Shown: positions 9,595 through 53,880 of the stretch, one piece after another
Layout: each line of letters opens with the position of its first letter
Numbering within the stretch: the stretch's first letter is position 1
Translations under genes and position numbers: made by a program
The notes under the pieces: model-generated
What the model was told of the DNA's origin: nothing
What the model saw: the letters and a program-made list of their open reading frames with translations, nothing else
The model's database searches: none
NCBI GenBank assembly: GCA_014379585.1
Contig: JACMLN010000017.1
Location: 1 to 53,880, forward strand
DNA length: 53,880 nucleotides
DNA from: Gloeobacterales cyanobacterium ES-bin-313
GTDB taxonomy: Bacteria; Cyanobacteriota; Cyanobacteriia; Gloeobacterales; Gloeobacteraceae
Reading direction: 5' to 3'

Positions 9595-10095
9595 TTAAGT
9601 TTCACTCTCCACGTCTTCCAACCCAAGCGCCATCAAGTAGCCCCGTGCGCGCTCTGTGCGCGCATAGCGATTCACCAAGTTCCAGAAGCGAGCACTATGG
9701 TTGGCCTCGACAAGATGAGCCAGTTCATGGACGATCACATAGTCCTGAACAAAAGTGGGTGTCTTCGCCAATCGCGCCGAAATGCGAATCGTGCGCAACC
9801 CTGGAGTGCAACTCCCCCATAGGCTCTGTTGATTGGTGGACCAACAGATCGATTCCCACTTGAGGCTGCCATCGAAGTAAGTACGGTTGAGGGCTTGGGC
9901 GCGGCGGTGTAGGTCGCTGTCATCCAAGTCGCCGCTTAAGTGTTTTTTCCGCCAGCGCTCTTGAAGTTTTTCAATGATCGGCGCCAACTCTGCATCGCTC
10001 ATGCCAAGGGGAGCACGGACAACGAATAAACCCGCCTCCCCACGACCACTGATCGTGCGGTTGCGCTTGGCGCTGCGAATGACTTTGACTTCCAT
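9595..10095 (-). CDS. YgjP-like (DUF45/M48-fold) metallopeptidase domain protein
   Basis: 166 residues. The zinc site HELAHLVEANHSARFW (HExxH plus the downstream NHS.xFW block) is the signature of the YgjP/WLM-type zincin family. The conserved LNRTYFDGSL and SLWGSCTPGLRTIRISARL segments precede it, as in UTP pyrophosphatase-annotated YgjP proteins. YgjP-like proteins are found widely and have no settled substrate. The start ATG 10095 is divergent from thrC, with an inverted-repeat pair lying between the two genes. There is no signal peptide, so it should be cytoplasmic. Confidence 0.82.
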   Translation of the reverse strand: MEVKVIRSAKRNRTISGRGEAGLFVVRAPLGMSDAELAPIIEKLQERWRKKHLSGDLDDSDLHRRAQALNRTYFDGSLKWESICWSTNQQSLWGSCTPGLRTIRISARLAKTPTFVQDYVIVHELAHLVEANHSARFWNLVNRYARTERARGYLMALGLEDVESET

Positions 10096-10133
10096 GGGTT
10101 CAAACGAGGAAAAGCAAAATCATCTTACCGAAA

Positions 10134-10171
10134 ATTGTCAAAGACAATACCCGACTAAAATAGTCGGGTAT
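10134..10171. promoter_or_regulatory. Two adjoining AAA-centred inverted repeats in the ygjP-thrC divergent spacer
   Basis: ATTGTC-AAA-GACAAT (10134-10148) is followed, sharing two bases, by ATACCCGACTA-AAA-TAGTCGGGTAT (10147-10171). Both are perfect, with arms of 6 and 11 bases and the same AAA centre. The spacer separates two divergent genes, so these could be regulator operators. As RNA, the longer one would be a stable hairpin, but the plus side lacks a T-run. Confidence 0.6.
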
Positions 10172-10231: not shown

Positions 10232-11524
10232 ATGACCCAAGTTTCTGTCCGTTCGACCTCCACCCTTAAGGGATTGCGCTGCCGCGAGTGCGGTGAAGCC
10301 TACCCTGCGGAAGCGCGCCACGTCTGCGAATTTTGCTTCGGTCCCCTTGAGGCAGTTTACGATTACGATGCCATCCGTGCTCTGACGACCCGCGAGAGTA
10401 TTGCCGCTGGTCCGCACTCGATCTGGCGCTATCGGAATTTTCTACCTGTCACTGGCGAACAGGTGATCGACGTGGGCACGGGGATGACACCGTTGATTCG
10501 CTCCCACCGTCTGGCTCGTCAACTCGGACTCAAGGCGCTCTACATCAAAAATGACGCGGTCAATGCCCCCTCGTTGAGCTTCAAGGATCGGGTGGTCTCT
10601 GTGGCGCTGACACGGGCACGGGAACTCGGTTTCACAACAGTATCTTGCGCATCGACAGGGAACTTGGCCAATTCCACCGCAGCGATTGCCGCTCAAGCTG
10701 GTTTAGAGTGCTACATCTTTATTCCCTCGGATCTTGAGGCGGGGAAAGTACTTGGTACGTTGGTCTACGGTCCTCAGGTGATGGCTGTCGAGGGCAACTA
10801 CGACCAAGTCAACCGCCTCTGCTCAGAAGTGGCTGATCGTCACGGTTGGGGCTTTGTGAATATCAACTTGCGTCCTTACTACTCAGAAGGATCCAAAACC
10901 CTCGGCTTTGAAGTCGCCGAACAACTCGGTTGGCAACTTCCCGATCACGTCGTCGCTCCCATTGCTTCTGGTTCTCTCTTTACGAAGATCCACAAAGGCT
11001 TCCAAGAACTGATCAAGGTTGGCCTTGTGGAGGATAAGCCTGTGCGCATGAGTGGTGCCCAAGCGACGGGTTGTTCGCCGGTATCCCAAGCTTTCCGCGA
11101 AGGACGGGACTTTATTTCGCCCGTGAAACCATCGACGATTGCCAAGTCCATCGCCATTGGCAACCCAGCCGATGGGGTCTACGCCATCGATTTGGCTCGC
11201 AAGACCAATGGCAACATCGAAGACGTATCCGATGCTGAGATCATTGAAGGGATTAAGCTCTTGGCACAGACCGAAGGTATCTTCACCGAAACCGCTGGCG
11301 GAACGACCATTGCTGTCCTCAAAAAACTCTGCGAACAGGGCAAAATTCGCCCCGACGAAACAACGGTCGTTTACATTACAGGAAATGGCCTCAAAACCCA
11401 AGAGGCGATCAGCCCGTATGTCGGCGAACCCTTACACATCGATGCCAGTTTGGAGAGTTTCGAGCGTGCCCTTGAGCGTTCGCGCACCCTCGAACGCCTA
11501 GAATGGCAACAAACCTCCGTCTAA
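10232..11524 (+). CDS. thrC: Threonine synthase
   Basis: 430 residues from ATG 10232; an in-frame TTG at 10184 is less likely. The N-terminus has a cysteine pair cluster, CRECGEAYP ... CEFC, as in the zinc-ribbon-bearing cyanobacterial/actinobacterial ThrC type. The PLP-dependent fold follows: NAPSLSFKDRVV contains the Schiff-base lysine, CASTGNLANSTAA binds PLP phosphate, and GSLFTKIHKGF and TAGGTTIAVLKKL complete it. It converts O-phosphohomoserine to threonine. A MoaD/ThiS-like sulfur carrier gene starts 40 bases downstream, an association seen in other cyanobacteria whose meaning is unclear. Inverted repeats lie just upstream of the start. Confidence 0.93.
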   Translation: MTQVSVRSTSTLKGLRCRECGEAYPAEARHVCEFCFGPLEAVYDYDAIRALTTRESIAAGPHSIWRYRNFLPVTGEQVIDVGTGMTPLIRSHRLARQLGLKALYIKNDAVNAPSLSFKDRVVSVALTRARELGFTTVSCASTGNLANSTAAIAAQAGLECYIFIPSDLEAGKVLGTLVYGPQVMAVEGNYDQVNRLCSEVADRHGWGFVNINLRPYYSEGSKTLGFEVAEQLGWQLPDHVVAPIASGSLFTKIHKGFQELIKVGLVEDKPVRMSGAQATGCSPVSQAFREGRDFISPVKPSTIAKSIAIGNPADGVYAIDLARKTNGNIEDVSDAEIIEGIKLLAQTEGIFTETAGGTTIAVLKKLCEQGKIRPDETTVVYITGNGLKTQEAISPYVGEPLHIDASLESFERALERSRTLERLEWQQTSV

Positions 11525-11564: not shown

Positions 11565-11840
11565 ATGTCTGTCACTGTCTTAATCCCCGGCGCACTGCGC
11601 AAACTGACCAATGACTCGCCGACCCTAGAATGCACTGGTGCAAACATTGCTGAGGTGATCGATGCCCTGGATCGATCCTGCCCTGGTATCAAAGCCCGCC
11701 TCTGTGGTGAAAATGGCGAACTGCGACGCTTTGTCAATTTCTATGTGAATAGTGAAGATATTCGTTTTTTGCAAGGGAGGGAAACCCAACTGCACGATGG
11801 TGACGAAGTGAGTATCGTTCCAGCTATTGCTGGGGGGTAA
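11565..11840 (+). CDS. MoaD/ThiS-like ubiquitin-fold sulfur carrier protein
   Basis: 91 residues ending in the essential diglycine ([10 protein letters not shown]). The beta-grasp pattern is clear: [17 protein letters not shown], then [18 protein letters not shown], then [36 protein letters not shown]. Members are activated at the terminal glycine and carry sulfur for molybdopterin, thiamine or, as CysO in mycobacteria, cysteine. RFVNFYVN and the length resemble CysO/MoaD2 more than ThiS. The ribosome site AAGGAT precedes the ATG. Co-transcription with thrC is likely, given the 40-base gap. No moaE or E1-like activating gene is in the window, so which pathway it feeds is not determined. Confidence 0.85.
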
Positions 11841-11891
11841 TTGCGGCAATTGCGGATTATGATCACAGGTAGTTACTGTCGGTTGCGCTGA

Positions 11892-12773
11892 ATGGCCAGA
11901 CGAACAAACGCTCGGGATTGTCCAAATTGCCGGAGCCACAAAGTTAACTACCGTCACCGTAAGCCTTGGGAGAGGTTTTTGGCTGCAACCTTGAGTTTTC
12001 AGTACTTCAAATGTAGTAATTGCGGCGAGAATTTCACGCGCACCAATGCCCAACTGACGGGCACATTGATTACCGAGGATGCCAAGGACACCATACTCCT
12101 GCCTTTGATTGGCAGACCTCGCAATCTTGTGTTGCTCGCACTCGCGATTTTTTTGCCGACTTGGTTGGCTTGGCGCTTCCTACAGTTACAACTGGCGATG
12201 GCCGAACCCCCTTCAGCGATTGCGGTCATTGGTGGAGGGCCACCACGGGAAATTGCCGCAGCCCAACTTGCCCAAAAATATCCTGACTTACCCGTGATCG
12301 TCCTCGGCGGTTCATCTTTGGGGTGCCTCAATCAAATTTTTTTTCAAGAGCGCAAAGTGGCTTGGCAACGGGTAATTGCTGACTATCGTTCCGCTTCCAC
12401 CCTCACGAATCTGACGACCTTACTGCCCTACTTAAAGTTAGATCGCCCCAGTAAGGTGATTGTGGTGACGGATACGGGGGGCTGGTCGCGGGCAAAAACC
12501 CTCGGTTCTGTGATCTTAGGAGGCCATGGAGTTGCCATGGTGCCTGCTCTGGTCGATGGAGAAGGCAGCTCACGGGGAGAGTCAACTCCCAAAATTGTCG
12601 CAGAGGTCTTTCTCGCGATTGGCTGGACACTCTTCGGCGATGCCAGTTTGCCGAGTGGCTTTTTTAACTCCAACTATATGGCTGAGGTCGTAGCCAATAC
12701 TCCATCAGGAAATTGCACCAAGGGCTACAACAATTTTTATCCTGTCTTGGATGGCTCGGAAATTGATCGATGA
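11892..12773 (+). CDS. Zinc-ribbon membrane protein with YdcF/DUF218-like domain
   Basis: 293 residues. An N-terminal zinc ribbon (CPNCRSHKVNYRHRKPWERFL ... FKCSNCGENF, about residues 10-47) is followed by one transmembrane helix (NLVLLALAIFLPTWLAWRFL, about 77-96) and a YdcF/ElyC-like domain (SAIAVIGGGPPREIAAAQLAQKYPDLPVIVLGGSS, then STLTNLTTLLPYL, VIVVTDTGGWSRAKTLGSVILGGHG). The DUF218 domain is linked in other bacteria to envelope polysaccharide metabolism; no reaction is established. The ribbon-DUF218 fusion is unusual. Its 3' end overlaps the converging oppA-like gene by 37 bases. Confidence 0.75.
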   Translation: MARRTNARDCPNCRSHKVNYRHRKPWERFLAATLSFQYFKCSNCGENFTRTNAQLTGTLITEDAKDTILLPLIGRPRNLVLLALAIFLPTWLAWRFLQLQLAMAEPPSAIAVIGGGPPREIAAAQLAQKYPDLPVIVLGGSSLGCLNQIFFQERKVAWQRVIADYRSASTLTNLTTLLPYLKLDRPSKVIVVTDTGGWSRAKTLGSVILGGHGVAMVPALVDGEGSSRGESTPKIVAEVFLAIGWTLFGDASLPSGFFNSNYMAEVVANTPSGNCTKGYNNFYPVLDGSEIDR

Positions 12774-18911: not shown

Positions 18912-19275
18912 GGGGCTGTAATGGCTTCGACATCCTGAAGAAAACTGTCCACGCAGGCTGGGAGTGAGTCCGAATCCCAATAAATCAGGCTCAAAAACAA
19001 TAAGTGCGAACAACATCGTTCCCTTTTCCCGCGCTCGCGTAGCTCTCGCTGCGTAACAAAACCGGGGCTTACATTTGGACCCACGACGGGTGTAGGCAAT
19101 GCAGTGGGTGCTCTGGAGACCGTCCTCTGTCGCGTAACCAGTTAAGATTTGACAGTGAATCCCGCTAACTGGGACAAAGTTAGTTCCCGCTGCTTGGGTC
19201 AATGCAGCCAAGCCTGTGGATGAGTGGTAGGTAAGTAGGCACGGGTGGACAGGGGTTCGACTCCCCTCAGCTCCA
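18912..19275 (+). ncRNA. ssrA: Transfer-messenger RNA (tmRNA)
   Basis: The 5' end GGGGCTGTAATGGCTTCGAC and the 3' end GGTTCGACTCCCCTCAGCTCCA are the conserved tRNA-like halves. GGGGCTG pairs with CAGCTCC to close the acceptor stem, and the CCA tail is not encoded. The tag reading frame resumes at GCG 19006 and stops at TAA 19056, giving ANNIVPFSRARVALAA. The start ANNIVPF and the AA end are typical of cyanobacteria. It is a one-piece tmRNA of about 364 bases. With SmpB it rescues stalled ribosomes and marks the products for proteolysis. A terminator follows at 19287. Confidence 0.97.
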
Positions 19276-53453: not shown

Positions 53454-53488
53454 GTCATAAAAAAAGCGCCCTTGTTGAAGGGGCGCTT
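53454..53488 (-). terminator. Terminator of the tRNA array
   Basis: On the minus strand AAGCGCCC-CTTCAACAA-GGGCGCTT is a perfect eight-base stem (53464-53488) followed by TTTTTTT. It is therefore a strong terminator for the leftward tRNA array and lies 25 bases after the last tRNA. Confidence 0.93.
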
Positions 53489-53513
53489 CGCCGCTTTAGG
53501 AGTGCCTGGACTA

Positions 53514-53588
53514 TGCCCCCAGTCGGACTCGAACCGACACATGAACGAGTTTTGAAGTCGCAGCCTCTACCAGTTGGGCTACGGGGGC
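53514..53588 (-). tRNA. tRNA-Leu(CAA)-like, short variable loop
   Basis: 75 bases. Acceptor GCCCCCG pairs with TGGGGGC (G.T at 7-66), discriminator A, no encoded CCA. The T arm is GTCGG-TTCGAGT-CCGAC, the D arm GCC-CAACTGGTAGA-GGC. The anticodon stem is GCGAC/CTCGT with a C31-C39 mismatch and the loop TTCAAAA, giving anticodon CAA. The variable loop is six bases, whereas leucine tRNAs normally have a long arm. It belongs to the tRNA array, separated by seven bases from its neighbour. Confidence 0.8.
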
Positions 53589-53595
53589 AAAAATC

Positions 53596-53682
53596 TGCGG
53601 GTACCTGGTAACGCTCCAGACCAATGCCAGTGATCTGCTGGATAGAGTTTATAAGGCTCCACTGCGCCTTGCGCCTACCCGC
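53596..53682 (-). tRNA. Divergent tRNA-like element, anticodon possibly UAU
   Basis: 87 bases. Acceptor GCGGGTA pairs perfectly with TACCCGC, then A. Anticodon-like stem GGAGC/ACTCT with loop CTTATAA (TAT at 34-36), a long variable-arm hairpin CCAG-CAGATCA-CTGG, and a T-arm-like TCTGG-AGCGTTA-CCAGG whose loop lacks the usual TTCGA. The D region (GGCGCAAGGCGCAGT) is irregular. It sits exactly in register between two tRNAs, so it is likely a degenerate or specialised tRNA. A pseudogene is possible. Confidence 0.45.
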
Positions 53683-53685
53683 CTA

Positions 53686-53755
53686 TCCCCTCTGTTGGAG
53701 TCGAACCAACCCACGAAATTTAGAAGATTTCAGTCCGTCTCCCACGGAGAAGGGG
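53686..53755 (-). tRNA. tRNA-Arg(UCU)-like, reduced
   Basis: About 70 bases. Anticodon arm GAAAT-CTTCTAA-ATTTC is perfect and gives anticodon TCT; T arm GTTGG-TTCGACT-CCAAC is canonical. The acceptor is CCCCTTC/AGAGGGG with one mismatch and one wobble, then A. The D stem is TCCG/CGGA with a seven-base loop and no room for bases 8-9, so the tRNA is shortened at the D arm. Exact ends are uncertain by one base. Gaps to neighbours are three bases. Confidence 0.7.
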
Positions 53756-53758
53756 CAG

Positions 53759-53833
53759 TGTCCCCGGTCGGACTCGAACCGACACGTAAACGAGGTTTAA
53801 GTTCGCAGCCTCTACCAATTGGGCTACAGGGAC
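53759..53833 (-). tRNA. tRNA-Leu(UAA)-like, short variable loop
   Basis: 75 bases. Acceptor GTCCCTG/CGGGGAC, discriminator A, no CCA. The D and T arms and 3' half are almost identical to the CAA tRNA at 53514. Anticodon stem GCGAA/CTCGT with mismatched top pair (A31-C39), loop CTTAAAC gives anticodon TAA. The variable loop is six bases, unlike ordinary class II leucine tRNAs. Confidence 0.8.
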
Positions 53834-53836
53834 GAA

Positions 53837-53880
53837 TAGGGATGGCGAGAATCGAACTCGCTCGATATCCTGTTCCCGAA
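53837..53880 (-). tRNA. tRNA-Pro(CGG)-like, 3' part only (cut by window edge)
   Basis: Visible on the minus strand are the anticodon loop TTCGGGA (identical to the Pro(CGG) loop), the 3' anticodon arm ACAGG, a seven-base variable loop, T arm GCGAG-TTCGATT-CTCGC, and 3' acceptor CATCCCT plus A. The 5' half lies outside the window. It continues the array. Confidence 0.7.

Follow-up and report, generated by a model that had tools for sequence, protein, structure and literature searches.

A tRNA array of probable stress-type L-array class, with short-armed leucine units, in a Gloeobacterales cyanobacterium

What kind of tRNA array ends in this window (53,880 nt, the entire contig C165 of the 4.26 Mb, 198-contig genome of ES-bin-313), and which enzyme charges those of its units that carry leucine anticodons on class I bodies? 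We conclude, with a probability of about 0.86, that it is a chromosomal, stress-type cyanobacterial L-array of the trn operon type, whose short-armed leucine units are charged by the ordinary LeuRS.

The tRNA array at the end of the window, with its class I leucine-anticodon units, is real. Reading inwards from the window's edge on the minus strand, it comprises the 3′ part of a tRNA-Pro(CGG) (53836..53880, identified by a 141-nt exact contig-end overlap with contig C131, where ARAGORN places the remainder at 12631-12706), a tRNA-Leu(UAA) (53758..53833), a tRNA-Arg(UCU) with a weak acceptor stem (about 53686..53757; ARAGORN 53686-53752, with the 5′ end lengthened by eye), a degenerate Ile(UAU)-like unit (about 53596..53682) and a tRNA-Leu(CAA) (53513..53589). 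Units are spaced about 2-6 nt apart, and the array's 3′ end is marked by an intrinsic terminator (53459..53489, minus strand), a 9-pair GC-rich hairpin followed by a T-run (-14.8 kcal/mol, z -1.8). The original prediction of at least five tightly spaced minus-strand units ending at a terminator is thus borne out by ARAGORN, by reading by eye and by the hairpin fold. ARAGORN called three of the window units, Leu(UAA), Arg(UCU) and Leu(CAA). The Ile(UAU)-like unit was read by eye from its anticodon loop; its T-arm is disordered, neither ARAGORN nor Rfam recognized it, and its folding is at shuffle level (z -0.01). Rfam matches to plastid ycf2 and BjrC68 within the array fell below threshold and were disregarded.

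We then have two leucine units whose bodies are 87% identical to each other. The covariance model RF00005 accepts both, at 48.0 bits for Leu(UAA) and 42.7 bits for Leu(CAA) against a cut-off of 29 bits, and these scores together with the ARAGORN calls led us to reject a chance or pseudo-tRNA status. Position-by-position reading confirmed the six-base variable loops (TTACGT and TCATGT) and the 31-39 mismatch described earlier, which is A31-C39 in Leu(UAA) and C31-C39 in Leu(CAA); no long class II arm appears in either unit.

The array was expected to run off the window, and it also leaves the contig. Because the final 141 bases of C165 are identical to the final 141 bases of C131, the window units form the 3′ end of a larger array, the rest of which lies at C131:10142-12784. 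The two contigs, joined here by this overlap alone, appear to be adjacent; a shared end of this kind is what a k-mer assembly graph gives for neighbouring contigs. ARAGORN recognized 29 tRNAs in the joined array, and about six further interrupted or degenerate units were found by eye. On C131 the latter include a Cys(GCA) unit (about 10068-10140), an Asp(GUC)-like unit (about 10527-10602), a unit resembling a Y RNA or tRNA-Asn (10935-11068), a Leu(UAG) unit whose T-loop carries a long insertion (about 11838-11936) and a further unit at about 12100-12192; the Ile(UAU)-like unit of the window is also counted among them. The T-loop of the Leu(UAG) unit measures about 28 nt in place of 7; a stretch of 24 nt from the insert was found just once in the genome, and its being a dispersed repeat was rejected. 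A short-armed leucine unit with a comparable T-arm disruption is present in the array of Nostocales LEGE 12452. The Leu(CAG) unit (C131:11587-11662) has a divergent D-loop from which the customary GG is missing, and its T-loop is also unusual; judged by these features it may be non-functional.

With the Ile-like, Leu(CAG) and Leu(UAG) units degenerate, not every unit of the array is functional. Degenerate units and insertions of this sort would also be seen if the whole array were decaying and out of use. We consider this improbable, as most array units score well over the Rfam cut-off, the promoter-side boxes and the terminator are intact, and the leucine determinants are conserved. C131 also bears ORFs that, from reading their translations, we take to be ndhC-ndhK-ndhJ and plastocyanin, and the array therefore appears to be located on the chromosome.

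L-arrays are recognized by at least 20 closely spaced tRNAs of many specificities, by being supernumerary to the housekeeping set, and by an upstream TrcR-type box accompanied by a TrcR homologue in the genome. The ARAGORN count of 29 lies above this number, with many specificities represented. Outside the array the genome encodes 42 distinct tRNAs, among them all five normal leucine tRNAs, so that the array is supernumerary; the search for a second, normal leucine set thus returned a full class II set elsewhere in the genome (CAA, CAG, GAG, UAA and UAG, 81-88 nt). Both the box and the homologue are also present, the orthology of the latter being judged by indirect comparison.

We found the paired box TGTAGTAY N0-20 TGTAGTAT at three places in 4.26 Mb and at none in a reversed control. 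One precedes the array, where the predicted promoter is weak (9 of 12), and another precedes an HNH endonuclease gene upstream of the array (C131:9263-9751; PF01844, E 1.5e-15), whose nearest plasmid homologues are 52-58% identical and belong to Nostocales and related cyanobacteria. The third tandem TGTAGTAT box stands before an AAA ATPase gene at L384 (C61):1580-2782. In Anabaena PCC 7120 the 26-gene trn operon is repressed by TrcR, which binds TGTAGTAT where it covers the -10 box of trn; TrcR likewise represses the HNH gene all8564, which is released in a trcR mutant, and the AAA ATPase gene all0263 is up 24-fold without trcR (PMC10272220). By analogy, the AAA ATPase on C61 is a candidate counterpart of the TrcR-controlled all0263. 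Other cyanobacteria, too, have TGTAGTAY boxes next to HNH genes and in front of tRNA arrays.

The putative repressor is encoded by a 111-aa TrcR-homologous ORF on contig C133. It matched no family in Pfam, with no RHH match, or in NCBIfam; its only phage matches are in Nodularia phages, including both TrcR carriers named in PMC10272220, and it is 34% identical to the phage TrcR homologues. A ATACTACA..TGTAATAC box lies at -50 to -33 relative to its start, and the published TrcR footprint spans 28-53 nt before trcR (PMC10272220). This indirect comparison, through the phage homologues and through the box and its position, suggests that the ORF may be the orthologue of TrcR (All0854).

Taken together, the HNH gene, the tandem boxes, the TrcR homologue and the boxes in other cyanobacteria place the array in the stress-inducible L-array class. 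An Anabaena-type tRNA array had been proposed, and the 29-tRNA array, supernumerary to the normal set, with its upstream boxes and TrcR homologue, agrees with that proposal. The HNH gene, the tandem TrcR-type boxes and the homologue also fit the suggested link to stress, by analogy with Anabaena. We infer repression, induction and charging in ES-bin-313 as follows. The array would probably be transcribed as a single polycistronic transcript of about 30-35 tRNA units, and would probably be silent in ordinary growth, held by a TrcR-type repressor on the tandem TGTAGTAY/TGTAGTAT boxes; these would act close to the promoter, upstream of both the array and the neighbouring HNH gene. Impaired translation would lift the repression, and the array would then supply extra tRNAs. 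Its leucine units would decode UUA and UUG, with CUN covered by other array units, and would receive leucine from the ordinary LeuRS of the cell, which would read A73, A15-U48, G18G19 and A20a.

The closest known system is the trn operon of Anabaena sp. PCC 7120, a TrcR-repressed operon of 26 genes on plasmid delta. Both it and the ES-bin-313 array are long, tight and supernumerary beside a housekeeping set, and both have an upstream TGTAGTAT box, an HNH gene preceded by that box and a TrcR protein or homologue. The ES-bin-313 array differs in lying on a contig with chromosomal genes, in having at least 29 tRNAs and tandem boxes, and in containing an internal Y-RNA-like unit; the likeness is drawn from these general features. 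L-arrays, their HNH genes and their control by TrcR are already known. Having the TrcR-type array, boxes, HNH gene and repressor homologue together in one genome, on a chromosome-like contig, helps to generalize the Anabaena system.

Arrays of similar appearance exist in mycobacteria (M. avium linear plasmids and the M. mucogenicum clade), with up to 26-27 tRNAs, an embedded HNH gene and class I tRNA-Leu. These are actinobacterial, whereas TrcR has been reported as limited to cyanobacteria and two cyanophages (PMC10272220). A putative antidefence role has been assigned to the mycobacterial arrays (PMC12803027), and phage tRNAs escape defences aimed at tRNAs (PMC10264068). Short-armed leucine tRNAs are common in viral contigs bearing tRNA arrays; the tRNA cluster of Synechococcus phage S-CBWM1, for instance, has a short-armed Leu(UAA) among other tRNAs, as in the window, but it lies in a phage genome and its other leucine units have a different D-arm. 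The ES-bin-313 array could accordingly be pictured as a phage-type counter-defence tRNA bank, a phage or plasmid relic whose tRNAs stand in for those that anticodon nucleases cut. We regard this as unlikely, though a serious candidate: the array contig bears ndhC-K-J and other chromosomal genes, the boxes are of the host TrcR type, which argues for domestication, and inspection of the array's surroundings showed no phage genes. It concerns origin and trigger, and is in part compatible with a stress-type L-array.

We next consider which enzyme charges the leucine units. The original prediction allowed for something other than LeuRS, and a non-LeuRS synthetase acting on these units would recode UUA and UUG under stress. 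Such a scheme would draw on their lacking the long arm normal for bacterial tRNA-Leu and on their distance from the housekeeping tRNAs, the genome's own class II leucine units being 64-66% identical to them. The E. coli LeuRS determinants are A73, the A15-U48 pair, G18G19 and A20a; the long arm is unneeded, armless variants are still charged, and human mitochondrial tRNA-Leu(UUR) is likewise without it (PMC9976931). Both window units carry U8, A14, A15, G18, G19, A20a, U48 and A73 by position-by-position reading. The genome has one bacterial LeuRS gene, split over the ends of contigs C123 and C109, with no second LeuRS above cut-off, and no synthetase gene was seen in the flanking ORFs scanned.

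The D-arm itself provides a further line of evidence. We scanned viral and genome collections with the pattern TAGCCCAAYTGGHAGAGGC, which describes the D-arm only and holds no anticodon information. It recovered at least 225 ARAGORN-recognized tRNAs, and all of those listed (225/225) bear leucine anticodons. The parsed tRNAs among the matches listed have A73 in 223/224 cases, U48 in 219/224 and a variable loop of 5-6 nt in 222/224. A looser D-arm pattern, applied among 2,206 tRNAs, was present in 299 leucine tRNAs and in 0 of about 1,760 non-leucine tRNAs. In arrays of at least five tRNAs, leucine units that lack the search pattern are also more often short than long, by 45 to 26 in the IMG/VR loci listed and by 25 to 2 in the GTDB loci listed.

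In whole-genome Rfam matches, the sole Leu(UAA) and Leu(CAA) tRNAs of Mycolicibacterium sediminis and of Corynebacterium pelargi are short-armed. Unless a gene was missed, these are the only UUR readers in both actinobacteria, and their LeuRS must therefore charge them. Such actinobacterial chromosomal genes share the D-arm type and determinants of the window units (at most 88% identity to the window CAA unit), and differ in being single housekeeping genes rather than array members. From the E. coli LeuRS biochemistry and the two actinobacterial genomes, we do not treat the long arm as defining tRNA-Leu. With the determinants present, a D-arm exclusive to leucine and the actinobacterial cases, charging of the window units by another enzyme is very unlikely on sequence grounds, and recoding of UUA and UUG, of all the readings weighed here, is the most remote.

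The short-armed type is widespread in phage and bacterial arrays, and this seems little remarked. A short variable loop in a mycobacterial cluster tRNA-Leu(TAG) was noted in 2019 (PMC6582537). In the part of the literature covered we found no paper treating the short-armed leucine tRNAs as one family or dealing with their housekeeping function in Actinobacteria, and we make no claim to priority. Among sampled cyanobacterial genomes the exact D-arm occurs patchily, in 16/292, a distribution compatible with the horizontal transfer that has been reported for L-arrays. Bacterial tRNA-Leu without the long arm, frequent in phages and arrays and the sole UUR decoder found in two actinobacterial genomes, is a testable point: it gives the textbook class II rule for bacterial tRNA-Leu a large and coherent exception, consistent with LeuRS biochemistry.

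One array unit, at C131:10935-11068, has a separate interest, since it contains GGGCCGAAGTGGGAGGGTTATCG within a tRNA-like frame. This sequence is similar to the motif by which Y RNAs bind Ro. Its sole other site in the genome, allowing at most one mismatch, is at C196:23638, immediately ahead of a TROVE (Ro60-family) gene; with only these two places, the insert was rejected as a dispersed repeat. The C196 site matches a nematode sRNA family in Rfam (39.4 against a cut-off of 38), a family that we take to be related to Y RNAs, and looser copies of the motif lie beside it (L441 (C196), about 1262-1565). The array unit matched no Rfam family and folds at shuffle level (z -1.08), and the exact pattern is absent from the 291 other sampled cyanobacterial genomes. 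A looser scan of all loci gathered gave 9 matches, compared to 6 in a reversed control; six of the nine are copies from the genome itself (two of them counted twice) and three lie away from tRNAs. The Y-RNA-like reading of this unit is thus a lead, not a result.

A bolder scheme would connect these elements. Short-armed tRNA-Leu would be a mobile lineage that lost its arm under selection, remaining charged by LeuRS while evading toxins or nucleases that recognize the long arm, and the array would be a stress-released backup whose Y-RNA-like unit is tied to the Ro60 pathway. We hold this to be a long shot, and prefer the reading of a stress-type L-array with LeuRS-charged leucine units. Elsewhere in the window, at 18912-19275, ARAGORN identified a tmRNA gene with the tag ANNIVPFSRARVALAA.
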